From positions 159,837 to 223,836 of IMG/VR virus record IMGVR_UViG_3300040801_002079: a stretch of DNA of 64,000 bases; one strand, written 5' to 3'. Every line of letters starts with the position of its first letter. The stretch's first letter is position 1. Both the position numbers and the translations under genes were made by a program. The notes beneath the pieces are model-generated. The model was not told the DNA's origin and searched no databases. It saw only the letters and a program-made list of their open reading frames with translations. This stretch comes from a virus. This document shows, piece by piece, positions 3,287 through 23,805 of the stretch.

Positions 3287-3619
3287 ATGAAAACAATAAA
3301 CGAAAGAGCCGATATTATATCAAACACTTTTCAGAATAAAGCACTTAGCTTTCTTAAAGGAATGGAAGAACGAATGGGGAATGATTTGATTTATTCTCTA
3401 GCTCTTGAAGCTGGAAATGTTTTTCTCTGCGTTGCTGCACACCCATCAATGACACCAAAACGCTGGGACACAGAGCGGGAACGTATTCTGTTCTTAATTG
3501 ATGAAGAGGAATATGGAATGGATCAAGATGAACTTATTGAGGTTCTCTCTGAGCGCCTAGAAGATCATATGTATTATGTCACTGCGGGACCCGAAGAAAA
3601 TGAAACTGAGACATCTTAA
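3287..3619 (+). CDS. Hypothetical protein
   Basis: A 110-residue mainly helical, acidic protein that I cannot assign. The start at 3287 has CGAGGTT about 8 nt upstream. Its last 20 nt overlap the start region of the Acb1-like gene in another frame, implying co-translation with an anti-defence gene. Confidence 0.6.
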   Translation: MKTINERADIISNTFQNKALSFLKGMEERMGNDLIYSLALEAGNVFLCVAAHPSMTPKRWDTERERILFLIDEEEYGMDQDELIEVLSERLEDHMYYVTAGPEENETETS

Positions 3620-4193: not shown

Positions 4194-4204
4194 TGATAAA
4201 TAAG

Positions 4205-4494
4205 TATAACATTGTACGATCCATTTAAGGATTTATTGTGGACGGCGGTTCGATTCCGCCCATTTCCACCAAAAGCATACCTAATGGGTATATTTTATGA
4301 TGGGAATGCACTGGTTTCGACATGGTAAGTTGGTAAATGAGGACAATGCGGCAACCGTGAAAGTCGTTAGGGTAAAACCAAAGAAGCAAAAAACTAAATG
4401 CAAACGATAGCATATATGATCAGGCCCTTGCCGCTTGATCGTGGGTTTAGCCAACCTTGAACCAGAACGGGTTAGGGGGGAGTAATCCCCCCGA
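4205..4494 (+). ncRNA. ssrA: Circularly permuted two-piece tmRNA (tag ANDSIYDQALAA)
   Basis: The acceptor piece comes first. Its T arm is GGCGG-TTCGATT-CCGCC (4244-4260), followed by acceptor strand CATTTCC (4261-4267), A and an encoded CCA (4269-4271). After a spacer of about 30 nt the coding piece starts with GGGAATG (4302-4308), which pairs with CATTTCC and includes the G3-U70 pair that specifies alanine. A second helix joins ATTTATTGTG (4231-4240) with CATGGTAAGT (4321-4330). The reading frame 4400-4438 encodes ANDSIYDQALAA-stop, a normal ssrA tag ending ALAA. Stems near 4453-4473 and a G6/C6 hairpin at 4475-4492 close it. tmRNA rescues stalled ribosomes and tags their products for proteolysis. 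A GATAAATA element lies at 4195-4202. Confidence 0.93.
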
Positions 4495-4515
4495 ATTTTA
4501 TCAAAAGGGACTTCT

Positions 4516-5271
4516 ATGAATCACGCAAAAAATGATGAGACTTACAACGATAACAATAATAACAATGAACAGCCTCTTTTTCCATTTTTACCTAACAGGG
4601 AACAAATAAGGTCCTTTAAAAGAACCATCCCAGTAGCGGTCTATGACTTCTACATTACTGATGAAATAAAAGAACCAGATGTGTACATGGAGTTAATTCA
4701 AACTCTTAAAAGTGCTGATCCTCAGGATACAATTTTCATCTATTTAAATACTCCGGGCGGGAGCCTCTATACTACCATTCAGATAATGTCGGCAATCACT
4801 AGCTCACAGGCAAAGGTCATAACATGCCTTGAAGGGCAGGCATGTTCTGCTGGAACATTCATTTTCTTAGCGGGAGACACTAAAATAGTTAATCCCCACT
4901 GTACGTTCATGGTTCATAATTATAGCCAAGGAGCAAGTGGTAAGGGTAACGAAATTGTATCCCATGTTAATTACATGGATCGATATTTTAAAAGACTAGC
5001 TGAAGATGTATACACTGAGTTTTTAACCAAAACTGAGTTGGAATCCGTTATTAAGGGTGATGACATGTGGATGGATTCACACGAACTGGTGAAAAGATTA
5101 GATGCCAACAACCATGACTACATCTACACGGGCCAAGATTTGGATGAAATATTAGGCAGAGACCCTGATGAGATTTCAGATGAAATGGAAGATGCTTCTA
5201 AGCCCAAACAAAGGGCAAAAAAGAAAGTAACTAAGAAAAAAGCTTCGAGGAAAAAAACCGCGTCTGATTAA
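4516..5271 (+). CDS. clpP: ClpP-like serine protease with Lys-rich tail
   Basis: The 251-residue protein has the ClpP core: oxyanion segment NTPGGS (78-83), nucleophile S111 in QACSAGTF, H134 in FMVHNY, and a candidate third residue D187 (DMWMDSHE). The first 28 residues are an Asn-rich extension. The last 25 are an H1-like basic tail with repeated K-K-x-x-K, which ordinary ClpP lacks. ClpP forms a barrel protease working with an unfoldase. Immediately downstream of the tmRNA, it could degrade tagged proteins. ClpP-type enzymes can also serve as prohead proteases, but the head genes are 40 kb away. AAAAGGGA precedes the ATG. Confidence 0.85.
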   Translation: MNHAKNDETYNDNNNNNEQPLFPFLPNREQIRSFKRTIPVAVYDFYITDEIKEPDVYMELIQTLKSADPQDTIFIYLNTPGGSLYTTIQIMSAITSSQAKVITCLEGQACSAGTFIFLAGDTKIVNPHCTFMVHNYSQGASGKGNEIVSHVNYMDRYFKRLAEDVYTEFLTKTELESVIKGDDMWMDSHELVKRLDANNHDYIYTGQDLDEILGRDPDEISDEMEDASKPKQRAKKKVTKKKASRKKTASD

Positions 5272-5309: not shown

Positions 5310-6320
5310 ATGAATTATGAGTGCATTGAAGATGTAGTCAGAGAGCATGTTGCATTTAAAAATGTGTCAGCATCTGGCTGGAACCAAGCATATTGTGAAT
5401 ATTGTGGCGATGGCGGGAGAACCAAGGGTCCCCGTGGTAATTGGCTATTTGATGGTGATATGCTATTCTTCAATTGCTATAATTGTGGAACCAAAGCAAA
5501 TTTTGATCCTCACAGGGAGATACCATTTAGTAAGCACATGCATGGTGTCTTCAAGGCTCACGGAATCCCATTAAAGTTCTGTTATGCGTTAATCCCCAAA
5601 GATGCTAATGCCGAAACTAGGGAAGTTAAGCCTCAAAAACTTAAATTTGATTCATTTGAATTACCGGATCATTTTTATAAACTATCAAGTGCAGCAATGG
5701 ATGACAAAAAAGCAATCATTGCTCGTGAACATTTAATAAACAAACGTAAAATTGATCCGGACGATTTCCCGTTTTATCTATCAAGCGGAGTTACACAATC
5801 ATCTAGCCCTAAAGATATAAGTTTGGCTAAGACATTTCAGCAAAGACTTATAATTCCATCATATGTCAATGATACATTAATTGGGTATGAGGGAATGGCC
5901 CTATATCCAAATAAAAACAAATATATAACAATTGGTTCTAATTTGGTACACGGCTATTCTAATATTTTCAGGGAAGAGGGGCATGTGCCACTGTTTGTAA
6001 CTGAAGGATTTTTTGATTCATATCATGTAAATGGAGTCGCATTGTGTACAAACTCCTTAAGTAATAAGCATATAGAGCTTCTGGAAAAGACATCTAGGCC
6101 CAAGGTTGTTATACCGGATAGGAAGAATACACATAACGCTTTAGCTGAAGAGGCACTTAATCTTGGATGGGGCGTGTCGCTACCCGAAATAAAGCCATAT
6201 AAGGATATTTCAGAGGCAATTGAGCACTATGGTGTATTTTTCGTATTAAATTCGGTTATGAAATCCATAAAATACGGGGATAGTGGAAAAATTTATTTAA
6301 AAATATATAATGTTGCATAA
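5310..6320 (+). CDS. 61: DNA primase (T4 gp61-like)
   Basis: A 336-residue primase. A zinc ribbon with C29, C32, C56 and C59 lies at the N-terminus and would read template DNA. A TOPRIM core follows, with the conserved acidic segment FVTEGFFDSYH (about 229-239) and the metal-binding VVIPD (266-270). The length matches T4 gp61, which makes RNA primers for lagging-strand synthesis with the gp41 helicase, also encoded in this window (36437-37834). It sits apart from the other replication genes, directly after clpP, with its own sigma70-like promoter. Confidence 0.85.
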   Translation: MNYECIEDVVREHVAFKNVSASGWNQAYCEYCGDGGRTKGPRGNWLFDGDMLFFNCYNCGTKANFDPHREIPFSKHMHGVFKAHGIPLKFCYALIPKDANAETREVKPQKLKFDSFELPDHFYKLSSAAMDDKKAIIAREHLINKRKIDPDDFPFYLSSGVTQSSSPKDISLAKTFQQRLIIPSYVNDTLIGYEGMALYPNKNKYITIGSNLVHGYSNIFREEGHVPLFVTEGFFDSYHVNGVALCTNSLSNKHIELLEKTSRPKVVIPDRKNTHNALAEEALNLGWGVSLPEIKPYKDISEAIEHYGVFFVLNSVMKSIKYGDSGKIYLKIYNVA

Positions 6321-10139: not shown

Positions 10140-10583
10140 ATGAAAAAAATAAGTAAAAAATATCCCTTAATTGTTGAATCACACCCCGATGATTATAATG
10201 GATACGAGTTCATAACTCTAATTCGCTATAATGATATCAACCATTTGACCATTGTTGATAATACGGATAAGAAATTCATTAACTGCTATGTGCTGGACCT
10301 GTGTAAAACGGTTAATCTAGAAGAAGAAAGAATAATAGATGTTACTCAAGAATGGTACAACACATCTAAAGATGCATATCCAATATCAATAGAGTTCTCC
10401 AAGCTTGGAATGACAGATGATGTGTCTAAGATTTTAAGAAGCTTCTCCATCGATTTTGTTACACGAGTTATCGGACCTCTTCCACATTTCAGTATGAAAG
10501 GTGTAACTAAAGTTAGAAAGAGAAAGCGTAAAGATGTGCCTGAGGGAATTCGTATTGTACAAAAGAAGCTTAAAGATTATTAA
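10140..10583 (+). CDS. Conserved phage hypothetical protein
   Basis: A 147-residue protein resembling, from memory, unassigned proteins in marine T4-like phages (pattern ESHPDDY-GYEFITLIRYND, IVDN, YPISIEFS). The C-terminus is basic (TKVRKRKRKD). TATAAATA sits immediately upstream, suggesting late expression. It converges with the minus-strand fibre operon, overlapping by 14 nt. Confidence 0.55.
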   Translation: MKKISKKYPLIVESHPDDYNGYEFITLIRYNDINHLTIVDNTDKKFINCYVLDLCKTVNLEEERIIDVTQEWYNTSKDAYPISIEFSKLGMTDDVSKILRSFSIDFVTRVIGPLPHFSMKGVTKVRKRKRKDVPEGIRIVQKKLKDY

Positions 10584-10944
10584 GCTTTGATAAAAGTCTG
10601 AAGGATTCTTTTACATCCTGATTATTAAACGTCTGAGCAACCCGCTTGGATGCTTCCAGAACTTCATTTCCCTCTTCCGAAAGCTCTCCTGTTTCATCAA
10701 CCAAATTATGGTACTCAAGCATCTCCTTACCTCGTGTAGTTAATTCTAAGGCGTTTTCGGTTGATCTTAGGGCACCAAGCTTCAATAATGTGTTTCTGGC
10801 AACAGAGAGGTTCTCGGAGGCCACAGTGTTCTCATATGCAACCTCTGGTGTGGGAGATACCTGAACTATGACCAACACCGCTTTCTGTGTATCATTTAAT
10901 ATAGCAGTGTTAGGATTAATTAATTCTTTAAGTAGTGTTTTCAT
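10570..10944 (-). CDS. Hypothetical protein with winged-helix-like pattern
   Basis: The 124-residue sequence has the helix-helix-wing pattern of a small transcription-factor fold: LSVARNTLLKLGALRSTENALELTTRGKEML reads like recognition helix plus wing, though I cannot assign a family. The ATG at 10944 lies within the last codons of the upstream gene (17-nt overlap); an in-frame TTG lies at 10956. It is the last gene of the minus-strand fibre operon. Confidence 0.5.
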   Translation of the reverse strand: MKTLLKELINPNTAILNDTQKAVLVIVQVSPTPEVAYENTVASENLSVARNTLLKLGALRSTENALELTTRGKEMLEYHNLVDETGELSEEGNEVLEASKRVAQTFNNQDVKESFRLLSKLNNL

Positions 10945-11503
10945 TCTGTTGCCCAATCAAGTGTAACTGTAGAACAATAAGTAATGAGTAAGGTATCGTA
11001 TGAGACTTACGCATATCACTATTTATCCGCTTAGTGTATAATTCTGGGCGAATAGCTTCCGGGTTCTCTAAATATTTTTCCAGCAGGCCAATCTTTCCGG
11101 GCCTAATTAATGCTAGAATGTCTGATAATTGCTGAACACTTCGGGGCTTCACTTTCTCCACAATGTCAAAATGTTTACCAATATGGAATAACCCGCTAAC
11201 AATTTTTTCACTTTCAAGTAGTGTCCAATCCGGCTCTTGCTTCAAAAGTGCCCGCATTTGAGCCTTACTCTTAAACTCTTTCAAGAGATTAAGATGTAGT
11301 AAATCAATCTTCAAGAAACCAACATCCTCAGCCTCTTTATAGGGTATGGCAGATAATTTAGTTTCGGGGTCTACAGGAATTTGCTGAAAATAAACACCAG
11401 CAGGGTGTTTTCTCAGTTTACCATCTTCGTTCATTGAGGCATAAACTAAATCAAAAACATCACTGGGATTAAAATCCGGGCGTAGATCGATATCAATGTC
11501 CAT
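10928..11503 (-). CDS. PolIII-alpha (DnaE)-like protein, C-terminal half of split pair
   Basis: The 191-residue protein opens with MDIDIDLRPD, equivalent to the catalytic PDxDxDF strand of bacterial C-family polymerases. It continues in the DnaE order: KHPAGVYFQ (the K-H-A-G-G-V segment), GFLKIDLLHLNLL (G-x-x-K-x-D-F-L-G-L), LFHIGKHFDIVEKVKPRSVQQL (F-Q-L-E-S...L-x-P), LALIRPG (A-L-x-R-P-G) and KSHTIPYSLLIVLQ (K-S-H-A-x-A-Y). It lacks PHP, OB and tau-binding domains. The matching N-terminal half is encoded at 23221-23805. Whether the pair polymerises DNA is unknown. It overlaps the chaperone gene by 11 nt. Confidence 0.75.
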   Translation of the reverse strand: MDIDIDLRPDFNPSDVFDLVYASMNEDGKLRKHPAGVYFQQIPVDPETKLSAIPYKEAEDVGFLKIDLLHLNLLKEFKSKAQMRALLKQEPDWTLLESEKIVSGLFHIGKHFDIVEKVKPRSVQQLSDILALIRPGKIGLLEKYLENPEAIRPELYTKRINSDMRKSHTIPYSLLIVLQLHLIGQQNENTT

Positions 11504-12233
11504 AATTCATTTCTATTTCTCGTTTTGTAACTATTAAATCTTCAACGCTTTCACAAAAGTTTATCTTACTTTCATAATGTAGCATATTATACTCTTCCTG
11601 TAAAGCGAAGTTGTATTGCTGATCCTTCATGTCAAGTAAGTAAATAATAGTGTCATTGATGTTAAAGTTTTTTAACCTCATAGTCAATTCGAAAAATGGA
11701 AATTTAGAAATATCTATATCTGTTATAGGATTAAGAGATGATATCAATCCTCTCAATTGATTCATATTCATGTCTTCGATATAAAAATCATCATCTAATC
11801 TGCTTAGCGTGATCGCTATAATGTCCAAAGCCTCTTGATATTTTTCTTCCAGATTTGGAGAAAATCTAAAACTTATTCTTTCATTGTAATACTCGACAAG
11901 CTTTTGATGTAAGAATTGTTTTCCTGATTCAACATCCTTTAAAGACATATTAGATGAATAGTCTATTAATATAAGACCACGTTCTTCTTCTAATTTATTA
12001 AGCTTTTCCTTATATTCTGAAATATTCTCAACAGAAAATCTATCAAGATTGCGCAAAGACTCTCTCCAATTGACCCATTGATTGCGAGATTGTGATGTAA
12101 GAGGGACATCCTGTAGTTGTGTCCAGTCACTTTCCAATAGGAGTCTGTTGCGTCTAGCAATAAGGCTGACCCATTTTATTTCTTCTTGATTTTTTGACTG
12201 CGAATATTTTAAATTCTTTATCTTTTTTATCAT
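11493..12233 (-). CDS. Tail-fibre assembly chaperone-like protein
   Basis: The first 70 residues hold the pattern of phage tail-fibre assembly proteins: RNRLLLESDWTQLQDVPLT followed by NQWVNWRESLRNL (about 28-62). The remaining two thirds are helical with no assigned family. It lies directly downstream of four fibre genes in the same operon, the usual position of such chaperones. No strong Shine-Dalgarno sequence is seen before the ATG at 12233. Confidence 0.6.
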   Translation of the reverse strand: MIKKIKNLKYSQSKNQEEIKWVSLIARRNRLLLESDWTQLQDVPLTSQSRNQWVNWRESLRNLDRFSVENISEYKEKLNKLEEERGLILIDYSSNMSLKDVESGKQFLHQKLVEYYNERISFRFSPNLEEKYQEALDIIAITLSRLDDDFYIEDMNMNQLRGLISSLNPITDIDISKFPFFELTMRLKNFNINDTIIYLLDMKDQQYNFALQEEYNMLHYESKINFCESVEDLIVTKREIEMNYGH

Positions 12234-12246
12234 GTCAAGGTCTACA

Positions 12247-14547
12247 TTATGCTGGCTTAAAGAAGAAATATACCGTGGCCCGTGTTAGGGTTGCATCGTA
12301 TGTTGTCCAAACCGCAGGGAATGAAAGATTTGATGATCCGTAACTAGTCACTATACTCTGATTTATATAGTTAGTGTTCTCAGCTTCATTATAATAAACC
12401 CTATAAAATGTTCGCAAATAATTGACCACATATCCATCAGGAACATTTATATCAAATCCAGTTACATCTCCGTCATTGCCATCAATATCACTCGTTATAG
12501 ATAAAGAGAACTTTTCACCGTCAACGAAGGTCGTGGTCCTACTTCCAAACGAACTGGTTCCTCCGGTTTGTCTAATATCTGCACTTAACGTAAATGATCT
12601 TTCTGGAGTCGGCGTTGGGGAAGGGCCATCTGGTGGTGGGGTTCCATCTATGTTCCAACAGAATTGATTTAAATAATTACATATGTTTTTGCCTTCCATC
12701 CATCTAGTAGCAAAATCACCTGAAAATGAATCATTATGTATTATCTGAACCGCGCCATCTGGTAACAACGCCGCACTATCGAATGTTACATCATTCATAC
12801 TGAAGGTTCTAGTTCCCAAATTACAATTTCCGCTTCCATCAGAAACTCCTATATTTGTATACCCCATTGGTTGAGTTGAAGACTCACCAATCATTGCTAA
12901 TAACTGATTTCCTGTAATTCCCACGGGTTCAAATATAAAGAGCCATTTTCTTCCGGGTCCACCAATTTCTTGTAGATATAACCCAGCTTTACATATAGCA
13001 TATTCCGATGTAGTTCTAGACATAGAACCAAAATTATCATTATAATTATTATATCCAACTACTCTTGTCGCGTTAGAGAAAATTTGCCCAGCCGGAACGG
13101 TGTCGCCTTCGGCTGGTGTTATAACGGAGCAACTTCCTGTAACAGGAGCATCATCTACTCCATCATGATCCCAGCTTGAGTACCAATATGTCAATGTTCC
13201 GGGCGATGAAGGGAATGGCCCCTCAGTCCCCGGATTTGTTAAGTTTGTTCCACCCGCAGCACATCCACCAACATATCCAACCGAACTAATATCAGATGAT
13301 CCGGGTATCCACCATTGTCGGGTATTGCCAACACTATCAGTGAGAATAACTCTACCGTGGAATCTTACGGTCATGCTATAATTATTTTCAGTATTAAATT
13401 CCGCGCTATCAAATTTCAAACGAATATATGGTATTTCTCCGGGGGATATATTTGTACGCAATGATCCAGTTCCGTCTCCACCGAAATAACTCTTTAAGAC
13501 TGTGCTGAGGGGATATGCCGACCCCTGATAGTACGTGCCTCCACTTCCAACCTCAACTAAGCCAGAGGGATCACTTGTGGGAGATTGAATAGTGGCGAAT
13601 ACATTTTGGAAATCAACAGTGTAAGGTGGGACCCCACCACTAATGTTTTGTAATGAAAAATATGTACTCTGATCATATGCACTTTTTGCAACATTACCCT
13701 CAGTATCGATGTGTGATGTGTTCGTTCCGCCTCCGGGTCCGGGAGTTCCGGGATCACATGGTGCGGGAGATACATAGAGTCGCGTATCGACTCCTAATGG
13801 CTCTACTGGCTCGGGAGTATCGGTTGGAGTCGGTGATACCGGAGGTGAGGGGGGAGGCGTTCCTGCGGGGCTGCTAGTTGGTGTGACTGTAATTCCCACT
13901 GGAGGGGTTGGGGTTGGAGTAACCTCTGGTAAATCTGGGGGAGTAACCTGTTGCCCCAGATTGTTATTGCCGCGTATTCCTATAATTAAATAGTTTACGT
14001 AAGATTCAATAGTAGTGGTATCTCCTAACACCTTATAGTGCATGGTTACTCTTGCTTCAGAGTCAGTACCACAAGTCATTCCAGAAAATCCGGAATTATA
14101 TGCTGCGGGTGCTACTGACCATATACATTCAGAGTATTCAAACTCTCGGCCCGTTACAGGGCTAATGGGTTTAGGCAATTGCTGACCATGATATACTGTT
14201 CCCCAGTTTGCTGCAACATCATCGTAACTTGATATTGGAATCCAATATGTTCCATCCCAAAAATATAGCACACCAGATGTTGAGTTATACCAAAACTGTC
14301 CATGGGTTGGGTTAACAAGCAAATTCTCATGACTTTGCGATGTGTCGGGTGTTCCGGGAACAGATGGGTTTTCAGGGCAAGCAAAATTTTCTAGCAAGTG
14401 TAATAGATTTTCATTAAGATATTCACCATATTCTAGATTTATTCTTCCAAACATAGCAACATCAACAGAGGTTCTATTAACATCACCCTGTTTAACTTCT
14501 ATTGGACTAGCACTAACTTGTGTAAAATCTATTTTATATGTTGACAT
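12247..14547 (-). CDS. Tail-fibre/adhesin paralogue 1
   Basis: The 766-residue protein starts with a domain shared by all four tandem paralogues: an (A/L)FGR-x-x-x-YGE segment, NENLLHLLENFACP, then GQFWYNSTSG-x-LY-x-WDGT-x-W and a C-rich stretch (about 1-200). A Pro/Thr/Ser linker follows (about 205-250). Next is an Ig/SprB-like domain with GGVPPYTVDF (about 305-430), shared with paralogues 2 and 3, and then unique C-terminal beta domains. The N-terminal domain probably attaches to the virion and the variable end contacts the receptor. It is the longest of the four and follows a GATAAATA element at about 14570. Confidence 0.7.
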   Translation of the reverse strand: MSTYKIDFTQVSASPIEVKQGDVNRTSVDVAMFGRINLEYGEYLNENLLHLLENFACPENPSVPGTPDTSQSHENLLVNPTHGQFWYNSTSGVLYFWDGTYWIPISSYDDVAANWGTVYHGQQLPKPISPVTGREFEYSECIWSVAPAAYNSGFSGMTCGTDSEARVTMHYKVLGDTTTIESYVNYLIIGIRGNNNLGQQVTPPDLPEVTPTPTPPVGITVTPTSSPAGTPPPSPPVSPTPTDTPEPVEPLGVDTRLYVSPAPCDPGTPGPGGGTNTSHIDTEGNVAKSAYDQSTYFSLQNISGGVPPYTVDFQNVFATIQSPTSDPSGLVEVGSGGTYYQGSAYPLSTVLKSYFGGDGTGSLRTNISPGEIPYIRLKFDSAEFNTENNYSMTVRFHGRVILTDSVGNTRQWWIPGSSDISSVGYVGGCAAGGTNLTNPGTEGPFPSSPGTLTYWYSSWDHDGVDDAPVTGSCSVITPAEGDTVPAGQIFSNATRVVGYNNYNDNFGSMSRTTSEYAICKAGLYLQEIGGPGRKWLFIFEPVGITGNQLLAMIGESSTQPMGYTNIGVSDGSGNCNLGTRTFSMNDVTFDSAALLPDGAVQIIHNDSFSGDFATRWMEGKNICNYLNQFCWNIDGTPPPDGPSPTPTPERSFTLSADIRQTGGTSSFGSRTTTFVDGEKFSLSITSDIDGNDGDVTGFDINVPDGYVVNYLRTFYRVYYNEAENTNYINQSIVTSYGSSNLSFPAVWTTYDATLTRATVYFFFKPA

Positions 14548-14577
14548 CTATTATTCCCAATTATCTGTATTTATCCA

Positions 14578-15948
14578 TTAAAGACAATCCGGACATTCAT
14601 CACAATGTTCATAATGTCCATAGCTAATAGGAAGCTCCCAGTCAGTCGGCGTTCGATTATTTGAACCCCCAACAGGTGTTGGCTCTCTTGGTATATACCA
14701 ATTAACACTATTGCCTTCAGCATCTATTAGAATAACCCACCCTGACAATGTGTAGTTTATTCGATATGTGTAAGTTGGATCGAAATTATCAGGGTTATCA
14801 AACTTAGGAGTAAACTTAACATATGGTAGAGATGTTGTATTTAGATTTGTGCGCAACCACGATGTATCCGACCCCACTCCTCCATAATATCTTATATCCA
14901 TTGTCATTGGGGGCAGCGCATATTGTCGAGTCTGACTTTCCCCTGTTAAACTATACCACCCTGTTATCGGGCTAACGACTATCCATCTAAAGATTACTTG
15001 ATACGGTCCATTGCCTCCTGATAAATCCTGTAAGGACACATAATATGGTTGCTCAACTTGATTTATTTGTATTGATGGGCCACATGTGTTGTATAGTCTT
15101 ATTCCGGTTCCTCCGGGTCCGGGCGCTCCGGGGTCTCCGGGAGATGGTGCAGTATATAATCTGGTATTAATGCCCAGAGGTTGAGGAGACGGAGTTGGTG
15201 TAACTTCGGCTGTAACTGTTGGGGTTACTGTGCTTGTTGGAGTTACAGTTGGTGTAAAATCAGGGGTGCTCGTCACGGTAGGAGTAACTGTTGGGGTTAA
15301 TCCATATGTTGGGGTTGGGGTTGGAGTTATACCAGATGGAAGCGGTGGTGGAACTAAGCTTCCTTTGTTTTGATTCCCCTTTATTCCTATGATTAAGTAA
15401 TTCGCTGTTCCGGGAAGTAGATCGGGTGGGGTGCCGTATTCCATTGTAACAATGGCATTGTTGTCTGTTGCGCAATTTACAACACTAAACCCCGTATCAT
15501 ATGTCGCAGGAGCCACACACCATATACATTCGTTATATTCAAACTCTTGACCACTTGTTGGGCTTACAGGTTTAGGTATCTGCTCTCCATGAAATATTGA
15601 TCCCCAATTGGCAGCTACATCATCCATACTGCTAATTGGGGTCCACGCAGATTCTGTATAAACATATAATGTGCCTTTTGTTGTGTTATACCAGAATTGT
15701 CCATTTATTGAATTATCAAATATATTATCAAATGATAAATTGGTGTCTGGGTTTCCGGGATTTAAAGGGTCTTCGGGGCAGGCAAAGTTTTCCAATAGAT
15801 GAACAAGGTTTTCCTGAAGAGCGTCACCGTATTTTAATCGAATATATCCAAATAATGATATATCCGTAGATGTAGTATCAACAGATTGCTCATTAACCTT
15901 TATTGGAGCTAGGTTGATGTTTGTATATTGAACGGTATAAGTGGTCAT
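14578..15948 (-). CDS. Tail-fibre/adhesin paralogue 2
   Basis: The 456-residue protein repeats the common N-terminal domain (YGDALQENLVHLLENFACPEDP, cut here to the diagnostic part), then a Pro/Thr linker (about 205-255) and the Ig/SprB-like domain with LSGGNGPYQV. It ends soon after in CDECPDC, a Cys-rich tail that may bind metal or form disulfides. GGTGAGGA precedes the start at 15948. Confidence 0.7.
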   Translation of the reverse strand: MTTYTVQYTNINLAPIKVNEQSVDTTSTDISLFGYIRLKYGDALQENLVHLLENFACPEDPLNPGNPDTNLSFDNIFDNSINGQFWYNTTKGTLYVYTESAWTPISSMDDVAANWGSIFHGEQIPKPVSPTSGQEFEYNECIWCVAPATYDTGFSVVNCATDNNAIVTMEYGTPPDLLPGTANYLIIGIKGNQNKGSLVPPPLPSGITPTPTPTYGLTPTVTPTVTSTPDFTPTVTPTSTVTPTVTAEVTPTPSPQPLGINTRLYTAPSPGDPGAPGPGGTGIRLYNTCGPSIQINQVEQPYYVSLQDLSGGNGPYQVIFRWIVVSPITGWYSLTGESQTRQYALPPMTMDIRYYGGVGSDTSWLRTNLNTTSLPYVKFTPKFDNPDNFDPTYTYRINYTLSGWVILIDAEGNSVNWYIPREPTPVGGSNNRTPTDWELPISYGHYEHCDECPDCL

Positions 15949-15966
15949 TCGATCCTCACCTTATAC

Positions 15967-17517
15967 CTAGTCGTAACCAAGTATTCTTAACTCTGTCAGA
16001 CATGAACCCGGACATATACTGCAATCATAATAGTGATTCCAAGTGCTATTAAATTTATATGTCGATCCGGGGTTAACTCGTTGATTCGATCCTCCGGTTT
16101 GAGTTGCATCCTCGGTTAACCACCATGTAATAGATGTACCAACCGAATCTGTCGCTCTAATATATCCCCATACTTCAGTCCAGAATCCAAGATAGCTTGC
16201 TTTATCTAAATCGTACCAAAGATCATCATTACCTGTATAGGTGTCAACCCTAGTATAACATGCCTCTCCGGGATCAACATTAATTCTAATTTCATTAACC
16301 CCGCTTGATTGTCGCGTTCCGCCACCATAATAAACTCTCAGTTCAGGCTCGACTGGAAGTGGATATGGATTAGGATCGGTAGGCCACATCATGTATCCAG
16401 TAGTATTATCAGTTCCAGCAGAATAGATATTACTCATATCAACAGTGTAAGGTGGAACGCCGCCAGATAACCCAACTAGATATACACTAACTGTTCTCTC
16501 AAGAGCATAAGAAAAATATAAATGTCTAAACGCTGCAACCGTTGCTGGGTCCTGATCGGGCCACACAAGATCGCCACACGAGTTTTTATGGTAAGTTGGT
16601 GAGCCACTACTAACGTCATTTGTGTATCCCGGTGAAGGGTACACATATAATCTAGCATCTCTGCCAAACGGCTCAACACTATTGGGTGGGGTTGATGCGG
16701 GTGTGCTCGTTGGCGTTGGCGCAAGAGGTGACGGTGATGGTGTAACAGAATTTGTGGGGGTAACTGTTGGGGTTGCGCCAAATGTTGGTGTAGGGGTAGC
16801 AGTCGGTGCTGGTGTTTGGGTCGGGGTTATAACTGGGGGATTAATGTTATTAATTCCTCTGTTAACATTTCCACGTATGCCAATAATCATGTAATTGGCA
16901 ATACCGTTTATCAGCGTTGAGTCTCCCGTAACCCTGTATTGCATTGTGACCCGCGCATCATCATCATCCGTTGAGCATACCATGAAGTCAATTTCATCAT
17001 CATAATGATATGGACCCACCATCCAAGAACATTCTTCATATGTAAAGGTTGCACCCGTGCTTGACACTGGAAGGGGAATCTGTTCCCCGTGTGCAATGGT
17101 TCCATAGTTTGCGGCTATTTCAGAAAATAAACTGAGGGGTACCCAAGTGCCAACATCATTAATCATTTTATAAACAAAAAGATGCCCTTCGGTTGATGAT
17201 GTAAGACCACTGCTTGCAGGAAATCCGGAATTGTACCAAAGCTGTCCTTCAATTGCATTTTCTAATGTGTGTCGAATAGCTCCCTCTGTTTCAAGGGTTT
17301 CAGATTCAGAGCTAATAAAGGGGTTACCCGCATTCTGAGGGTCTTCGGGACAAGCAAAGTTTTCCAATAAATGAAGAAGGTTTTCATTCATTAATTCTCC
17401 ATATTCCAATCTCTCCCTGCCAAATAAAGCAATAGCCAAGTCTTGGTTTATGGTTTTTTCATCCACATTAGTGGATGGTTTACTTTTATCTGTTCTGTTA
17501 ATTACATAAGTAACCAT
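15967..17517 (-). CDS. Tail-fibre/adhesin paralogue 3
   Basis: The 516-residue protein has the same plan as paralogue 2: common N-terminal domain with an insertion near residues 65-95, Pro/Thr linker (about 235-285), then the Ig/SprB-like domain (LSGGVPPYTVDM) and a Cys-containing end (CSICPGSC). Its ATG overlaps the stop of the small gene upstream (TAATG), so translation is coupled. Confidence 0.7.
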   Translation of the reverse strand: MVTYVINRTDKSKPSTNVDEKTINQDLAIALFGRERLEYGELMNENLLHLLENFACPEDPQNAGNPFISSESETLETEGAIRHTLENAIEGQLWYNSGFPASSGLTSSTEGHLFVYKMINDVGTWVPLSLFSEIAANYGTIAHGEQIPLPVSSTGATFTYEECSWMVGPYHYDDEIDFMVCSTDDDDARVTMQYRVTGDSTLINGIANYMIIGIRGNVNRGINNINPPVITPTQTPAPTATPTPTFGATPTVTPTNSVTPSPSPLAPTPTSTPASTPPNSVEPFGRDARLYVYPSPGYTNDVSSGSPTYHKNSCGDLVWPDQDPATVAAFRHLYFSYALERTVSVYLVGLSGGVPPYTVDMSNIYSAGTDNTTGYMMWPTDPNPYPLPVEPELRVYYGGGTRQSSGVNEIRINVDPGEACYTRVDTYTGNDDLWYDLDKASYLGFWTEVWGYIRATDSVGTSITWWLTEDATQTGGSNQRVNPGSTYKFNSTWNHYYDCSICPGSCLTELRILGYD

Positions 17518-17690
17518 TATACTTCCTCATAACTGTCAATCTTTGAATGTATCATGTCGGATTTAAATTCGCCGTCTGATATCTCAAAGACTTCAATTCC
17601 CGAATCTGCTGAATTTTGCGCCGATACCCGCTTTTGTGCAGTTCCTATAATAACTTGTTCTCCATCGATTTCTTTAACCAATAAAAACAT
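17517..17690 (-). CDS. Small coupled protein between fibre genes
   Basis: An open frame of 57 codons starting [13 protein letters not shown] and ending DSYEEV. Both ends are TAATG overlaps: its ATG overlaps the stop of paralogue 4, and its stop overlaps the ATG of paralogue 3. The tight coupling on both sides supports a real gene. Acidic, with no recognised family. Confidence 0.6.
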   Translation of the reverse strand: MFLLVKEIDGEQVIIGTAQKRVSAQNSADSGIEVFEISDGEFKSDMIHSKIDSYEEV

Positions 17691-19057
17691 TATAGTATTT
17701 CCCCGCTCCCCTCGACTGTTAATGCAAGCCTAATATCATCAGAGTCGCCTTTTGGTCCAGTTATTGTTACAACTATAACCTGAGTCCATTCACTTCCTGA
17801 TGTTGGTGGACCTAAACACCACGATTTAGTTGTGCCCAGATTACCCGATGTTGGCCCGGATGCTACAGGATATGGAAATTCTTGGGTGGCGGTAAATGTA
17901 TAATCTGATCCATCTTCTCCATCTCTAAATCCATTAACTACCCACTCACCATAAACTCCACATGATGCTGCAACGACAGTTCCGTTGGAGTTTATGCTTA
18001 TACATGCGGTTGAAGCCGTCTTAAGACAAGCATAAAAGCCGCCCTTAACATCGCCAGTTGGATCAACTGATAGAGATGGTGTAACCTCTGGTGTAACAGT
18101 TGGATCAGGCGTATTTGATGGTGTAACTGGAGGCGTTGGCAATGGAGTCTCCGTGGGGTCAGGCGTACTTGACTGCGTTGGTCCGGGAGTTCCTGCGGGC
18201 GTATTTGATGGAGTAACTGGGGGCGTTGGCTCTGGAGTATTTGTTGGTGTAGCAGTAACTCCGGGTGCGGGTGTATTTGATGGCGTAACAGTATTGGTCG
18301 GTGTAACTGTTGGTGTATTTGTTGGGGTTGGCTGTGGAGAGCTTCCGGGAGTCACCGTTGGGGTTGCGGTAACAACCGGTGTTCCAGTTTGAGTTGGCGT
18401 TGGTGTAGGAGTTGCCGCCTCTGGTAAACTTGGAACAGGGCCGATTGCTCCCAGATTTGCATTATCCCTTATGCCAACAATCTGATAATTAACTAACCCA
18501 GTAGTTAAATCGGAACCAACGGGACGATACTGCATATTAACTGTTGCCTGATCATCAGTAGAACAAACCATGTAGTTAATATCATCAGGGTAATTAAACG
18601 GGGAAACTATCCACGAACATTCTTCATATTGAAATACATATCCTGTTGTGGGACATACGGGCTGTGGCAATTGCTCACCGTGTGCAATCACTCCATAGTT
18701 GCCAGCAACATCACACCCTGTACCAAGTGCCGTCCATTCTGTTCCATTATATCGATAAGGTCTTTTATCCGTTGTGTTATACCAAATCTGTCCCTCAATA
18801 GGGTTTTCAAGAAGTGCGCCAAATGCATTGGCTAAATCTGGATTTCCGGGATTACCAGCATCTTCGGGACAGGCAAAGTGTTCTAATAAATGTAAAACAT
18901 TTTCATTAAATATTTCACCATAATCTCGTTTTGTTTTACCAACGAACGCGATGTCGGCTTTATTTGTAATCAATTCACCCTTGGAAACAAAGATTGCATC
19001 TTTGCTGGCATCGGTAAAGTTTATTGTATAAAGATTTTGTGAGCAGTTAGTTGCCAT
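17690..19057 (-). CDS. Tail-fibre/adhesin paralogue 4
   Basis: The 455-residue protein has the common N-terminal domain ([37 protein letters not shown]) and the longest Pro/Thr linker of the four (about 215-335). It lacks the Ig/SprB-like domain and ends in a short, different beta domain (about 345-455). It is first in the minus-strand fibre operon. GGGAT and an AATAAATA element lie upstream. Confidence 0.7.
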
Positions 19058-19114
19058 AGTTTATCCCAAATATAATATTTCCCTAGTATTTATTATTTAT
19101 GCGATTCAGGATAA

Positions 19115-19783
19115 CTATAAATCTAACTGAGACAAGTAATTTTTGACCTCATTAATTGATCCTTTATTAACATCAAGTATTAATTGCCACTTATCTAAGT
19201 TTATAACAGACTCTATTAATTTCTGCTCTTCATAGTTGGTTTCATTCCTAACATATTCGTGAAATTTTTTACTCAATAATAATGCCCAAGGGGATAAGTT
19301 TCTAGACTGTATCAGTTTTATCAAATCCTGTGGCTTCAAATGAGAATAAACCTCAGATATTTTACACCCAAATGCAGAAGATAACCTCTCCATTGTTGTC
19401 AATGTTATGCGCAGATGAACCTTAGCGTCATTCTCTTTATCAAACTGGTTTATAAAGTATGAGTAGATATCATCATTGTACCAATGCTGTGGGAGTATTG
19501 AATCCTTTGCCATTAGTTCAATATACAACGACACATCCGGAATTCCCATTTTTAGTGCGTAGTCTGTAAATGTATAAAATACCTTATAATACTTTGACCC
19601 TATGAAGATTTCTTGAGAAGGATTAGGGAGGTTGCGCTTCTTAAACCATGTTTGGTAGTTTTTATATGCCATCTTTCCACGAGGTGTCTTGAGTTCCCCA
19701 ATACGAGTCTCCTCATCACACTTATGCTTGGTGTAATTTTCTTCTTTAATAAACTTAGTTTTACAATATTCACATTCAAACAT
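19115..19783 (-). CDS. Conserved phage protein with N-terminal C2H2 zinc finger
   Basis: The 222-residue protein begins CEYCKTKF...HKC (C4, C7, H20, C22), a zinc-finger-like motif. The rest (YQTWFKKRNLPNP, LSPWALLLSKKF) matches, from memory, a conserved unassigned family encoded near the clamp-loader genes of marine T4-like phages. A nucleic-acid-binding role is plausible. The start overlaps the upstream gene by 8 nt. Confidence 0.6.
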   Translation of the reverse strand: MFECEYCKTKFIKEENYTKHKCDEETRIGELKTPRGKMAYKNYQTWFKKRNLPNPSQEIFIGSKYYKVFYTFTDYALKMGIPDVSLYIELMAKDSILPQHWYNDDIYSYFINQFDKENDAKVHLRITLTTMERLSSAFGCKISEVYSHLKPQDLIKLIQSRNLSPWALLLSKKFHEYVRNETNYEEQKLIESVINLDKWQLILDVNKGSINEVKNYLSQLDL

Positions 19784-20231
19784 TTTTATATTCTTTCTTA
19801 ATGGCTTCGATTTGATCCCACTCGCCTAATTCATCAATTATAGCTAACATGCTTTCCAGATTCATCAACTCACTGTCTGCTTTAGCCTCGGCTGTTCCTA
19901 TTTTATAATACTTTTTCAAAAGATCAACCGTTATTGGCCTCTTGGTTGGTTTAGATTTTTGTTTTTTCCATTTATAAAATTCAGGTTTATTATTCCCCGA
20001 AGAGCACAATAGGTTATAACAAAGTTCTGGATATCGATGAAGTTTAAATATATTTTGGTTTGCGGATGCTGCAAGCATCAATAGTTTTTCTTTGTCGTTC
20101 GTAAACGCCATCCACCTTAAGATAATATAAGGTGAAATTGTTTTTCTCTCTGCATCAGTTAGGGACTGTATATAATTATAGTCCCCAACATCGACATGTT
20201 TTAAGACTTCAAATATGTCAATCTTGCTCAT
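19776..20231 (-). CDS. 62: Probable clamp-loader small subunit (gp62-like)
   Basis: The 151-residue protein lies two genes downstream of gp44. It contains a segment (LTDAERKTISPYIILRWM, about 24-41) and HRYPELCYNLLC that I associate with gp62-type subunits of divergent T4-like phages. In T4, gp62 joins four gp44 subunits to load the sliding clamp. It has no ATPase motif, as expected. Sequence support is limited, so the call rests partly on position. Confidence 0.45.
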   Translation of the reverse strand: MSKIDIFEVLKHVDVGDYNYIQSLTDAERKTISPYIILRWMAFTNDKEKLLMLAASANQNIFKLHRYPELCYNLLCSSGNNKPEFYKWKKQKSKPTKRPITVDLLKKYYKIGTAEAKADSELMNLESMLAIIDELGEWDQIEAIKKEYKNV

Positions 20232-20514
20232 TAACTGTTAGCCGTTTATTGCAGAACTTACACAGAACATAGTCTCCACGATTTACTAAAAACTCCCGTG
20301 GATGTACACATTCTTTTGCAAGAAGATCACGTAATGCAATAAGTTCGTCAAGATGGACCTGTCGCTCCATTGTCAATTCGAGAATCTTTTCTTCTATCGG
20401 TTGAATATTCTCTTCAATCATGGTGGTCATCTTTTTATGCTTTCGTTTCCATGCAATACGTTCATTCTTTGTAGCATGGTTTACAATTTTGGTAAATAAT
20501 TCTTTGTCCGTCAC
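20218..20514 (-). CDS. Hypothetical protein with possible zinc-binding end
   Basis: The 98-residue protein consists of a long charged helix and a C-terminal CVHP...CKFC cluster that could bind zinc. I place the start at GTG 20514 because AAGGAG lies 6 nt before it, right after the gp44 stop; another GTG at 20535 has no such signal. It lies between gp44 and the probable gp62. Confidence 0.55.
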   Translation of the reverse strand: MTDKELFTKIVNHATKNERIAWKRKHKKMTTMIEENIQPIEEKILELTMERQVHLDELIALRDLLAKECVHPREFLVNRGDYVLCKFCNKRLTVNEQD

Positions 20515-20524
20515 GGCAATCTCC

Positions 20525-21472
20525 TTATATGTCACAAATTTTAGCTAGACACGCTGATAAGTTAAGTTCAGGTATGGCGCTGGTATCATGTATGGCAGCA
20601 TAATGCGCCAATGTTATTACAGCCTTTCGCATATTCGATTCGTTGTTTGAGCATTTTTCAATTTCTTTCAGATTGTTATTTAAAAACCGATATACATTAC
20701 CAATATCATCAGGTGAAAGTTCTTGGTAAATTAAATCGCGTATTGAAATCCAATCATTTTCATCAATTAACATTAGTATCTTAACAAACACTTCAATATT
20801 TTCAACCGATGGTGGATGTAAAACTTTACCATCATATGCTTGCTCAATACTCGTAATAAATTTTCGTAGGTCAGGAAATGCCAATTCCAAATGTGAATCC
20901 AAAATGGCAATCAGTTCACCAGAATCTACACTACTTAAATCCATACCCTGTGTATTGAGTATTTCTAGCACAATTCGTTTCATCTCTTGTTTACTCATAC
21001 TTGTAAACATATATTCCGTACAGCGTGAACGAATCTCGGGGATAATTTTATGAGGCTTATTGCATGTAAGAATGAACCGTGCATTCATATCCTCATCTTC
21101 CATCATTGATTTTAACGCTTCCTGTGCTTGTACGGTTAGCGCATCGGCCTCATCCAAAAAGACTAACCTGAACTTGCTCATGCTCATGGTGCTTATAAAC
21201 GGTTTAACTTTATGTCGTATATCGTCAACCGAATTATCATCGCTTGCATTAAGAACAAGAACATCAATTTCAGGGATGCCGATTTCATTCTGAAGAATAT
21301 AGCGAAGCGTTGTTTTGCCCGTACCGCGATGTCCTGCTAACAGAAGGTCAGGGAAATCTTTTTGATCTATATATTTCCTGAAATTTCGCTCAGTTGCTTC
21401 ATCTTGAAATACGTATTCATCAATGGACTTTGGGCGATAAAGTTTATACCACCCTGTAGTTATTTTGCTCAT
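20525..21472 (-). CDS. 44: Sliding-clamp loader large subunit (gp44-like)
   Basis: An AAA+ ATPase of 315 residues: Walker A GHRGTGKTT (47-55), Walker B VFLDEADA (104-111) and the clamp-loader SRC motif (149-151, with the arginine finger). Clear relative of T4 gp44 and RFC small subunits, which load the processivity clamp using ATP. A sigma70-type promoter lies just upstream (21494-21522), and TAGGAG precedes the ATG, consistent with early expression. Confidence 0.9.
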   Translation of the reverse strand: MSKITTGWYKLYRPKSIDEYVFQDEATERNFRKYIDQKDFPDLLLAGHRGTGKTTLRYILQNEIGIPEIDVLVLNASDDNSVDDIRHKVKPFISTMSMSKFRLVFLDEADALTVQAQEALKSMMEDEDMNARFILTCNKPHKIIPEIRSRCTEYMFTSMSKQEMKRIVLEILNTQGMDLSSVDSGELIAILDSHLELAFPDLRKFITSIEQAYDGKVLHPPSVENIEVFVKILMLIDENDWISIRDLIYQELSPDDIGNVYRFLNNNLKEIEKCSNNESNMRKAVITLAHYAAIHDTSAIPELNLSACLAKICDI

Positions 21473-21493
21473 ATGAACTCCTATAATTCTAAT

Positions 21494-21522
21494 ATTTTAT
21501 AAGAGTCTATTAGATATGTCAA
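21494..21522 (-). promoter_or_regulatory. Sigma70-type promoter for the clamp-loader operon
   Basis: On the minus strand TTGACA (21522-21517), a 17-nt spacer and TAAAAT (21499-21494). It lies 22 nt before the ATG of gene 44, with TAGGAG in between. Confidence 0.7.
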
Positions 21523-21525
21523 GAA

Positions 21526-22557
21526 CTATGATCGGTTTATTTTTCCAAGATTTTCTCGAACAGAAGACCGCTTTATCTCATTTTCAATGCGAGTAACAGT
21601 ATCAGCCAATGATTCGATTGCATCCGTGTTCTGTGAGTTCATTATAAGCTTTTTAAGATCATTTAAATCATCAGAACTAATGGATGGTTCAGAGGAAGAT
21701 TGCGTCTCTTCAGGGACTTCTTCAGGGACTTCTTCAGGGACTTCTTCAGTATCCCCCATATGACTCACCGCATTATCAATACTATCCACTGTGTGCACTC
21801 CTGCATCATCTATAACGTGCTTTGCTTCTTCAACAATATCATCTATAGCCTTAGCAGCCGTTGCATTGGCCTTTTCTTCCTCTCGCTTTCTCAGGGCTAT
21901 ATTCGCAGCCAGTGTTAAACTAACCGCCAATGGATCGAAAACACCAATTATTATAAGAACAAACCAGAATGTAGCTTTATCGGGATTCTCACCCAACACC
22001 TCTGCTACATATATAATAGGTCCAATTTTCGCCTCTGTTGTTAACACATTGCCCTTTAGCTCTAAAAGCTTAGCATCCGTGTCTTCCAGTTTCTGGATAA
22101 TGTCCTGCTTTTCTTCCTCATATGTGCGGATAAGTTCCATTCGCTTAGTGATATAATCATCACCGGTTCTAGCAATGTCAGAGTTTATTCCATCTAATCT
22201 TTCTTGATATGATTGTCGCTGCTGCTCATAGATTACAATTTGTTCTTGTTGCTGCTTTAAACCGATAGAGTCTGTCTGGTATGCGGCAGTTAGGAATCCA
22301 AAAATGCCCAACGATGTAACAACCATAAGAGTGAATACAGCAATAAATAAGTAAGTCTTAAGCAGTCTAGGTGTAGATGACCAATATCTATAGAGATAAG
22401 AGGCAGCAACAAGTTTTCCTACCTCAAGTGCACCACCCATGATTATAACAGGTATAAAAGAGGCTGAGAATATTTGCGCCAAACCGTAGACACTAAAAAA
22501 CGCGGCAGACGATGCTACCGCGAATGCGCTTAGTATTAATAGTAAAATAAAACCCAT
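21526..22557 (-). CDS. Conserved membrane protein with coiled coil
   Basis: The 343-residue protein starts with three or four hydrophobic segments (about 2-22, 31-50, 67-92), then a charged coiled coil (about 100-170), another membrane segment (about 188-218) and a charged cytoplasmic tail. The tail holds EVPEEVPEEVPEE, encoded by a 12-bp tandem repeat. It resembles a membrane protein (ALEVGKLVAASYLYRYW) conserved in marine T4-like phages, with unknown role. GATAAATA lies only 8 nt before the ATG, without a Shine-Dalgarno sequence. Confidence 0.6.
   Translation of the reverse strand: MGFILLLILSAFAVASSAAFFSVYGLAQIFSASFIPVIIMGGALEVGKLVAASYLYRYWSSTPRLLKTYLFIAVFTLMVVTSLGIFGFLTAAYQTDSIGLKQQQEQIVIYEQQRQSYQERLDGINSDIARTGDDYITKRMELIRTYEEEKQDIIQKLEDTDAKLLELKGNVLTTEAKIGPIIYVAEVLGENPDKATFWFVLIIIGVFDPLAVSLTLAANIALRKREEEKANATAAKAIDDIVEEAKHVIDDAGVHTVDSIDNAVSHMGDTEEVPEEVPEEVPEETQSSSEPSISSDDLNDLKKLIMNSQNTDAIESLADTVTRIENEIKRSSVRENLGKINRS
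21709..21744. repeat. 12-bp tandem repeat, three copies
   Basis: TTCAGGGACTTC is repeated three times exactly with a partial fourth copy, coding for the EVPE repeats of the membrane protein. Copy number may vary by slippage. Confidence 0.85.
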
Positions 22558-22575
22558 GAGGGTATTTATCTATTT

Positions 22576-22911
22576 TTAGGATGCTACTGGATTTTCCTCA
22601 GTAACACATACAACCTTTTCAAAGTCAGTAAACCAAAACTTTTCGGCATCATGAGCATCAGTCAGCGTCATAGCATTAGTCCAACCAAGAGCTTCGATAA
22701 GAATATACTCACCCTCTTGAATTAAACTCGTGTCCACATCTGGACCCAGCTTTAAAACCTTACCCCAACGGTCTTGATTAACCTGATTACTTCTATCTTC
22801 AATCAGGTGAATCCCGCCAGCAGACTTACTATGAAAAGCACTGTTTTCAATATCTTCTACAAACTGAAATAAAATTTTTGTGTTAATCGGCTTTATTGTT
22901 TCTAAACTCAT
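22576..22911 (-). CDS. 31: Co-chaperonin GroES / gp31-like protein
   Basis: At 111 residues it equals the length of T4 gp31. The order is GroES-like: PINTKILFQF (the P-x-x-D-R-x-x-x-x strand), a mobile-loop region with GGIHL, WGKVLKLGPDVD (matching G-x-V-x-A-V-G-x-G) and YILIEAL. T4 gp31 replaces GroES so that GroEL can fold gp23, which is also encoded here. Identity is by fold pattern rather than strong motif. AGAGG precedes the ATG. Confidence 0.6.
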   Translation of the reverse strand: MSLETIKPINTKILFQFVEDIENSAFHSKSAGGIHLIEDRSNQVNQDRWGKVLKLGPDVDTSLIQEGEYILIEALGWTNAMTLTDAHDAEKFWFTDFEKVVCVTEENPVAS

Positions 22912-22912
22912 G

Positions 22913-23188
22913 TTATCCTCTTTTTTTAATTATTTTGCGTTTTTGATTTTTCATTGCTTCAGGCTTTTCTTCAGGCTCAGGTTTCGCCGCTTTAGTTTCA
23001 ACCGGCTTATCCGTCTTGTCAAGCATTTTCTGAACTGCCCTCTTAGAGCCGCGCTTCCGTTTAGAGTACACAAAGTCTTCTCTATTTTTCACATCAGCGG
23101 AAACAGGCTTGTCGCCTATTTTTCTTTTAAGTTCCAGTAAATCAAAATCAACTACTTCGCCTTTTATACTTGTAGCTTTTCGTGCCAT
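22913..23188 (-). CDS. Hypothetical basic protein
   Basis: The 91-residue protein is Lys-rich with a disordered end (KPEPEEKPEAM) and the segment GEVVDFDLLELKRK. No assigned function. GGGAG precedes the ATG, and the stop lies 1 nt before the gp31-like gene, so the two are probably co-translated. Confidence 0.5.
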   Translation of the reverse strand: MARKATSIKGEVVDFDLLELKRKIGDKPVSADVKNREDFVYSKRKRGSKRAVQKMLDKTDKPVETKAAKPEPEEKPEAMKNQKRKIIKKRG

Positions 23189-23220
23189 CGTTATAAACTC
23201 CCAATATCTCTTTTATATAT

Positions 23221-23805
23221 TTATGCTCTAAAAAAATCTGCGATATCAAGCTCATAGTAGATGCTATCAACATCATGAACTCCTATCAAATAAAGTACAT
23301 ATGAACAGCACGAGCTTCCCCTGCCTGTCCCCCATATTATTCCATTTTCCATAAAGGTGTCAACAATGTACATAAGAGATTTTAATAAATCTGATAGCCC
23401 CCGTTCTTCCCATAGCTTCAGTTCCATGTTAACGCGGTCAACTCGCTCCATTATCTCAGTTTCGGTAAATGTATTACTGCGTAACTCGGATTCTAAACTA
23501 TTGAATACAACATTATTTATCGATAACTCTTTGTATTCATTAGGGATATTCCAGTTAAACATTTCATCACTGAAATTAAGACTGGTTTTATTTTTTATCC
23601 TTTTCCCATCTTCCGTTAAATCATTAAAACGTTTAACAGAAAAATCTTCGGGATCAATGATAAAGCTATCAATCCAGTCATCCTCACCTGATAATATCTT
23701 ATCAGCAAGCCCCTTTACGGTATATGATGAATCACCATCAAACCATAATATTCTTTTATCAAGAATAGTGTATGGGTTAGATAAAGCTTGATTCGTAGTT
23801 TCCAT
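23221..23805 (-). CDS. PolIII-alpha (DnaE)-like protein, N-terminal half of split pair
   Basis: The 194-residue protein ends with WGTGRGSSCCSYVLYLIGVHDVDSIY-type sequence, the G-x-G-R-G-S-x-x-x-S-x-x-x-x-x-L-x-I-x-x-x-D-P motif that precedes the catalytic aspartates in DnaE. It stops at DIADFFRA, exactly where the F-E-R-F-L-N-P-E segment of DnaE would continue into P-D-x-D-x-D. The missing part, beginning DIDID, is encoded at 10928-11503. No intein-like sequence is seen at either edge. The start is uncertain: ATG 23805 or TTG 23817. It overlaps the upstream gene by about 29 nt. Confidence 0.75.
   Translation of the reverse strand: METTNQALSNPYTILDKRILWFDGDSSYTVKGLADKILSGEDDWIDSFIIDPEDFSVKRFNDLTEDGKRIKNKTSLNFSDEMFNWNIPNEYKELSINNVVFNSLESELRSNTFTETEIMERVDRVNMELKLWEERGLSDLLKSLMYIVDTFMENGIIWGTGRGSSCCSYVLYLIGVHDVDSIYYELDIADFFRA

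Follow-up and report, generated by a model that had tools for sequence, protein, structure and literature searches.

The available parts of Iyer et al. (2021; PMC7824862) describe, in "group 2.2" jumbo phages, a split minimal version of the alpha subunit of DNA polymerase III (Pol III alpha) that occurs beside a family B polymerase. The authors propose that the parts reconstitute an enzyme, possibly one that works together with the family B polymerase in the synthesis of one strand or in repair. We analyzed a pair of genes of this kind in a 64,000-nucleotide stretch (the window; positions 159,837-223,836) of the viral record IMGVR_UViG_3300040801_002079, which totals 316.8 kb and may be incomplete. 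The pair, henceforth referred to as the N-half and the C-half (Table 1), is a C-family (DnaE-like) polymerase core in two pieces, a conclusion on which PHROGs, Pfam, AlphaFold2/Foldseek and alignment agree. The first-pass annotation, made from the sequence of the window alone, had pointed out this split minimal polymerase; it is not new in kind, as the 2021 publication already covers it. What we add is a fixed break point, the retention of the catalytic residues throughout our sample, the presence of the pair in 11 out of 11 named phages, and its linkage to the clamp loader gene gp44 and to a gene of the family phrog_11637. The two linkages and the occurrence of the pair in a phage below jumbo size were not found in the available parts of PMC7824862, and they may not be new.

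The locus shows no difference of kind from the group 2.2 system. As there, the nucleotide triphosphate-binding and the metal/template-binding parts are encoded in two distant genes, the genome carries a family B polymerase and a T4-like clamp loader, and there are no other Pol III domains. The genome belongs to an uncultivated member that falls in the XacN1/RAS14 branch with support 100, and its two halves are separated by tail-fibre-like genes. The minimal forms (minis) share with E. coli DnaE1 the palm and fingers fold and, in the same order, GRGS, the catalytic aspartates, the H511-region motif, the RP motif and the KSH helix, at ~21% identity over the aligned core. Unlike DnaE1, a mini consists of two chains, lacks the PHP domain, has ~30 instead of ~110 residues from DxDxD to H and ends near the position of E. 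coli residue 781, so that it is also without (HhH)2, the clamp motif, OB and the C-terminal domain. Full-length DnaE-like polymerases encoded by other phages (e.g. Pseudomonas phage KPP22M1 and Mycobacterium phage BigMama) are likewise C-family enzymes but differ in being single chains of 931-1305 residues (n = 8) with a full-length DxDxD-to-H stretch. Division of a phage polymerase between two genes is also known from another family, since phage Aeh1 has a split family B polymerase. Other T4-like and jumbo phages have split family B polymerases too, including MIJ3, whose family B halves carry intein parts according to the available text of PMC6892783, whereas the mini halves do not.

Both open reading frames lie where the first-pass annotation had put them and in the same orientation; the strand, which it had left unstated, is the minus strand for both, and the plus strand is full of stops at both gene positions. 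Read along the minus strand, the N-half precedes the C-half, with ~11.7 kb between them. The N-half encodes 194 residues from its ATG, or 198 if a TTG at 23817 (12 bases upstream) is the start. As anticipated, it ends soon after GRGS, with EFF-R(A) ~33 residues past the start of that motif and just before the position of the DnaE catalytic strand. The C-half has 191 residues, begins with M-DIDID and stops directly after the last fingers helix, and the three later motifs that had been named (KHPAGV, LIRPG and KSHTIPYS) are all found in it.

Both halves match Pol III alpha by profile and by predicted fold, the two grounds on which, according to the first-pass annotation, the assignment should stand or fall. 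Against PHROGs, the N-half matched phrog_11127 ("DNA polymerase", E 6.3e-40) and phrog_405 (E 9.3e-11), and the C-half matched phrog_11778 ("DNA polymerase", E 3.3e-59). The Pfam DnaE palm model PF07733 hit the N-half above the cut-off (E 4.9e-9), and the DnaE finger model PF17657 hit the C-half just below it (E 4.2e-4). At the level of sequence families, the matches of both halves are far above chance. We built family profiles from 63 aligned C-halves and 73 aligned N-halves; near-identical rows were removed before alignments A3 and A4, and locus L104 was also omitted from A3. Searched against the PDB at E up to 10, the 63-row C-half profile retrieved nine Pol III alpha chains only (E 0.001-0.004). 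The same nine chains were the best nine for the N-half profile (E 3.8e-5 to 0.0023), with unrelated proteins from 0.03, and hhalign placed the N-half family on E. coli DnaE with E 7e-8 over 155 columns.

AlphaFold2 modeled the C-half with a predicted local distance difference test (pLDDT) score of 95.7 and a predicted template modeling (pTM) score of 0.87; the values for the N-half were 88.8 and 0.71. In Foldseek searches of the PDB, each of the top 14 rows for the C-half model was a Pol III alpha entry (E 5.4e-5 to 0.052), and rows 1-11 and 13-14 for the N-half model were Pol III alpha or PolC-type DNA polymerase (best E 0.0064). Residues 3-189 of the C-half realigned on residues 402-781 of E. 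coli DnaE (2hnh) with Z 10.4 and a root-mean-square deviation (rmsd) of 3.9 over 180 aligned residues, the next unrelated structure scoring Z 3.2. Residues 85-194 of the N-half fell on E. coli DnaE 278-394 (4jom; Z 13.6, rmsd 2.3, 107 aligned) and residues 83-194 on 5lew (Z 13.7 with rmsd 2.4 over 105 residues), where the first unrelated structure scored Z 4.4. PolC structures scored about equal to DnaE for both predicted chains. Given the placements on DnaE 278-394 and 402-781, the chains correspond to adjacent, non-overlapping stretches of one polymerase core. For residues 1-84 of the N-half, hhalign places part on the DnaE stretch behind the PHP domain, which is suggestive only; the structure alignment covered 83-194.

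The catalytic residues are retained across the minis. The metal ligands of C-family DnaE given in the available parts of PMC3919608 are D401, D403 and D555 of E. coli, and D2, D4 and D67 of the C-half align to them. DxDxD and the later K-x-D are kept in 78 out of 78 full-length C-halves sampled (77 by pattern, L104 reading K-I-D-M-F), counts that omit L087, whose frame stops after 81 residues, and L089, which runs off its contig. GRGS is kept in 80 out of 80 N-halves sampled. The spacing from DxDxD to H is 29-33 residues in 90 mini copies versus 108-134 in the full-length enzymes measured (110 from D401 to H511 in E. coli), and the thumb of the mini enzyme, judged by this spacing, is essentially gone. 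K137 in RPxK is invariant in the minis (63/63), where DnaE mostly has RPGP.

The first-pass annotation had described a C-family palm/fingers unit without PHP, OB or tau domains. The profiles and predicted folds bear this out, with the thumb missing as well. Within the two chains examined there is no (HhH)2, clamp-binding motif or OB domain, the C-half ending near the position of E. coli residue 781. No PHP match was found in either half or anywhere in the 316.8-kb record, and we therefore class the pair as a member of the split mini family that is homologous to the core of C-family enzymes, and do not count it as a standard Pol III alpha. The record holds a single PF07733 match, with no second DnaE palm, and has two DnaQ-like exonuclease matches elsewhere.

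The split had been placed at the active site, and this reading stands. The two genes are 11.7 kb apart, and the break separates the GRGS helix from the DIDID strand, which leaves every catalytic aspartate in the C-half. We assessed the break point in the best 80 of 588 C-half and the best 80 of 572 N-half confirmed places in viral_contigs, a sample that distant fused forms could escape; scans of viral_contigs with the single proteins gave 1 and 0 loci. This survey of fused versus split forms, which the first-pass annotation had suggested, found the split form only. In 80/80 sampled N-half loci the chain stops 33-37 residues past the start of GRGS, and the C frames have ≤37 residues before DxDxD, again in 80/80. 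A DxDxD string occurs in six of the 80 N frames, five times upstream of GRGS and once as a variable tail (DLDVD) at the very end. Split inteins occur in cyanobacterial DnaE (available parts of PMC3919608) and in the phage MIJ3 family B polymerase (likewise PMC6892783), and the two chains could in principle be joined after transcription or translation into one protein by a split intein or a trans-splicing intron. We consider this extremely improbable, as the sampled N-chain tails and C-frame leaders are too short for intein halves and an Rfam scan of the window gives transfer RNA and transfer-messenger RNA (tmRNA) only. With no room at the break and no trace in the Rfam scan, joining by an intron or intein has no support.

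In a tree of 27 sequences and 275 columns, built with no PolC outgroup, all minis form one clade (support 100) on a long stem (branch 1.67). From this clade and the lack of a fused form in the sample, we infer one old split. The minis group with divergent phage DnaEs (SPbeta-like; support 86 and 94), a placement that may be long-branch attraction and that we do not trust. Iyer et al. (2021; PMC7824862, available parts) propose that an ancestral Pol III module survives as a relic in the split mini, which would then not be a reduced DnaE. A single clade on a long stem would suit such a relic, but our PDB profile searches reach DnaE and no PolC chain, which fits descent from the DnaE side, and we regard the relic origin as unlikely. 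An active pair would also bear on a published claim of a likeness between such forms and the earliest replication enzymes; our results neither confirm nor exclude it.

By tblastn, C-half relatives were detected in 63 phage records, including RaK2, 121Q, GAP32, PA5oct, XacN1 and Atu_ph07, and N-half matches in 78 records, including phages outside the split-pair group (Listeria and Mycobacterium phages). We surveyed 33 whole records, comprising the present record, 11 named phages and 21 viral contigs. The N-half and the C-half are each present in 32/33 and a family B polymerase in 30/33. All three are found in 11/11 named phages, and each half in 20/21 viral contigs. Among the contigs, G001, which lacks the N-half, carries its C-half at the very end; G013, which lacks the C-half, and G005, G009 and G012, which lack a family B polymerase, are 147-200 kb long and may be fragments. 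The pair also occurs in Alishewanella phage Slicko01, whose genome measures only 141 kb, and is therefore not confined to jumbo genomes. Scanning genome_contigs with the C-half family gave 11 loci (L190-L200), all in metagenome-assembled genomes of unrelated phyla (labelled Pelagibacter, Verrucomicrobia, archaea and others), and these are probably phage contigs that were binned wrongly.

The first-pass annotation noted that the window has no B-family gp43 and left open whether the mini assists or replaces another polymerase. No family B polymerase was seen in the window, and one lies outside it in the same record (Table 1). This enzyme has 804-872 residues with exonuclease and polymerase domains and is apparently intact. 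With a family B polymerase encoded both here and in 30 of the 33 records overall, the question is mostly answered: the mini enzyme accompanies the family B enzyme. Five records of related phages (NC_042013.1, LR588166.1, OQ508956.1, G011 and G020) have the family B polymerase, too, divided between two reading frames, giving two split polymerases in one phage.

We consider it likely that the two chains constitute a minimal C-family core whose active site is assembled from both and which works as an accessory polymerase. The N-chain would supply the palm part carrying the GRGS triphosphate-binding loop, and the C-chain the metal-binding aspartates (D2, D4 and D67) and the fingers; the chains would associate non-covalently and rebuild one active site. 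Because it lacks the PHP nuclease, nearly all of the thumb and any helix-hairpin-helix, OB or tau-binding part, such an enzyme would be poorly processive alone and would be expected to serve as an accessory polymerase. Beside the family B replicase it might act in gap filling, repair, lagging-strand patching or bypass. It would probably use the phage's own clamp and clamp loader, whose gene the N-chain gene adjoins: in 31/31 records with both, the N-half is followed on its own strand by gp44, at a distance of 0.7-8.5 kb. The counts on gene order are not independent, as they come from related records, two of which (G005 and G015) seem to represent one phage. Separate genes and lost domains would also fit non-catalytic halves that mimic pieces of DnaE and disturb the host replisome. 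Neither the strict catalytic conservation (78/78 and 80/80 sampled) nor the conserved place beside gp44 is expected of a decoy, and we give this explanation very little credence.

A further alternative is an active nucleotidyltransferase that is not a usual DNA polymerase (primer-making, template-independent or nucleotide-modifying), in which loss of the thumb removed processive DNA binding. All catalytic residues are kept in spite of a DxDxD-to-H stretch of only 29-33 residues, and the invariant K137 in RPxK is specific to the minis, both of which would suit such an activity; the fingers motifs are nonetheless retained and the clamp loader linkage points to the replication fork, so that we think it improbable. 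Several points weigh against an accessory polymerase of two chains. Its grip on DNA is doubtful given the loss of the thumb. The halves are on the same strand in 31/31 records with both, at a separation of 3.7 to 224 kb, and in 7/31 they are >80 kb apart, unlike subunits from one message. The comparison of hidden Markov models that had been suggested in the first-pass annotation, run here against E. coli DnaE, succeeded for the N-half (E 7e-8), whereas a 12-row C-half family against E. coli DnaE alone gave a weak result (probability 4%, E 0.01). A phmmer search of the PDB with the single C-half sequence found no match at E up to 1. The assignment of the C-half is based on the 63-row profile, PHROGs and the fold. 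We found no biochemical study of the pair in the literature.

The gene of family phrog_11637, which has no assigned function, is convergent to and downstream of the C-half in 31/31 records with a match (31 of the 32 records with a C-half), at distances from touching to 6.5 kb, and occurs in 0/14 control genomes. It is a candidate for a partner or for a conserved transcription boundary. Conceivably, though we would not expect it, the thumbless two-chain enzyme is completed by a third phage protein that provides DNA grip or clamp contact, such as the phrog_11637 product or the GroES-like, membrane or zinc-finger-like protein of the clamp-loader operon. If so, no smaller or more divided C-family polymerase would be known, and assembly of the subunits would act as a built-in on/off switch. 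If the two chains are active, the pair would be a naturally split minimal Pol III whose two chains total ~385 residues, compared with 1160 in the single chain of E. coli. Such a pair would show which parts of Pol III catalysis alone needs, would offer a two-part polymerase that is switched on by mixing, and would account for the retention of two unrelated polymerases by large T4-like phages.

Table 1. The two polymerase halves and other features of the record (window coordinates unless stated otherwise)
Feature	Coordinates	Strand	Description and evidence
N-half	23221-23805	-	Upstream palm segment; R124/E128, GRGS (161-164); phrog_11127, phrog_405, PF07733, AlphaFold2
C-half	10928-11503	-	Catalytic strand DIDID (D2, D4, D6), KHPAGV, K65-x-D67, fingers with LIRPG, KSHTIPYS; phrog_11778, AlphaFold2, Foldseek
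GroES-like (gp31-like) co-chaperonin	22576-22911	-	phrog_931 E 2.4e-7; phrog_3188 co-chaperonin GroES E 8.5e-4
Membrane/coiled-coil-like protein	21526-22557	-	Translation; weak family matches only
Clamp loader large subunit gp44	20525-21472	-	phrog_168 E 3.4e-60
Clamp loader small subunit gp62-like	19776-20231	-	phrog_225 "clamp loader of DNA polymerase" E 2.4e-8
N-terminal CxxC...H zinc-finger-like protein	19115-19783	-	phrog_11058 E 1.9e-40; motif read from sequence
Four tail-fibre-like genes	12247-19057	-	Open reading frames; member at 17690-19057 matches phrog_15511 E 1.2e-109
phrog_11637 protein (no assigned function)	10140-10583	+	phrog_11637 E 2.3e-24; convergent, downstream of C-half
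Family B polymerase	291006-292049 of the 316.8-kb record, 67 kb outside the window	+	DNA_pol_B and DNA_pol_B_exo1 matches
Phage DNA primase family match	5310-6320	+	phrog_47 E 6.3e-22
Phage-encoded tmRNA	4160-4529	+	ARAGORN; Rfam permuted tmRNA model 123 bits
Acb1-like anti-CBASS protein	3576-4193	+	Pfam PF23474 E 1.2e-33

A compact arrangement of these neighbors is that of G012, where the N-half, GroES, membrane-like, gp44, gp62-like and zinc-finger-like genes and the C-half follow one another within 4.8 kb, and then phrog_11637. The window has the same order, plus added genes of 91 and 105 residues. The GroES-like gene is a frequent neighbor between the N-half and gp44 and is annotated at the same place in several named phages. 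Both G012 and G011 also have the membrane/coiled-coil-like gene between GroES and gp44 and a zinc-finger-like counterpart directly before the C-half. Between the zinc-finger-like gene and the C-half, the window carries the four tail-fibre-like genes and one tail-assembly-chaperone-like gene; tail-fibre-like genes are not found between the halves in G012. The 12-kb gap in the window therefore consists mainly of tail genes. The four tail-fibre-like genes are in tandem inside the clamp-loader/C-half block, are related, contain Pro/Thr-rich stretches and are probably paralogues. Other lineages (RaK2, GAP32 and MIJ3) differ in having the C-half near genes annotated as primase and helicase or as RadA. 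In XacN1, a gene annotated as epsilon-like follows the C-half by ~2.3 kb, and for Atu_ph07 the available part of PMC6102473 lists alpha and epsilon subunits from annotation. The window also encodes, beside the T4-like clamp loader, a phrog_16 DNA helicase match that qualifies as a UvsW-type helicase.

Away from the polymerase genes, the window encodes an Acb1-like anti-CBASS protein and a match to a phage DNA primase family, the latter near PhoH-like and ClpP-like genes. It also carries a phage-encoded tmRNA, for which ARAGORN gives the tag ANDSIYDQALAA.

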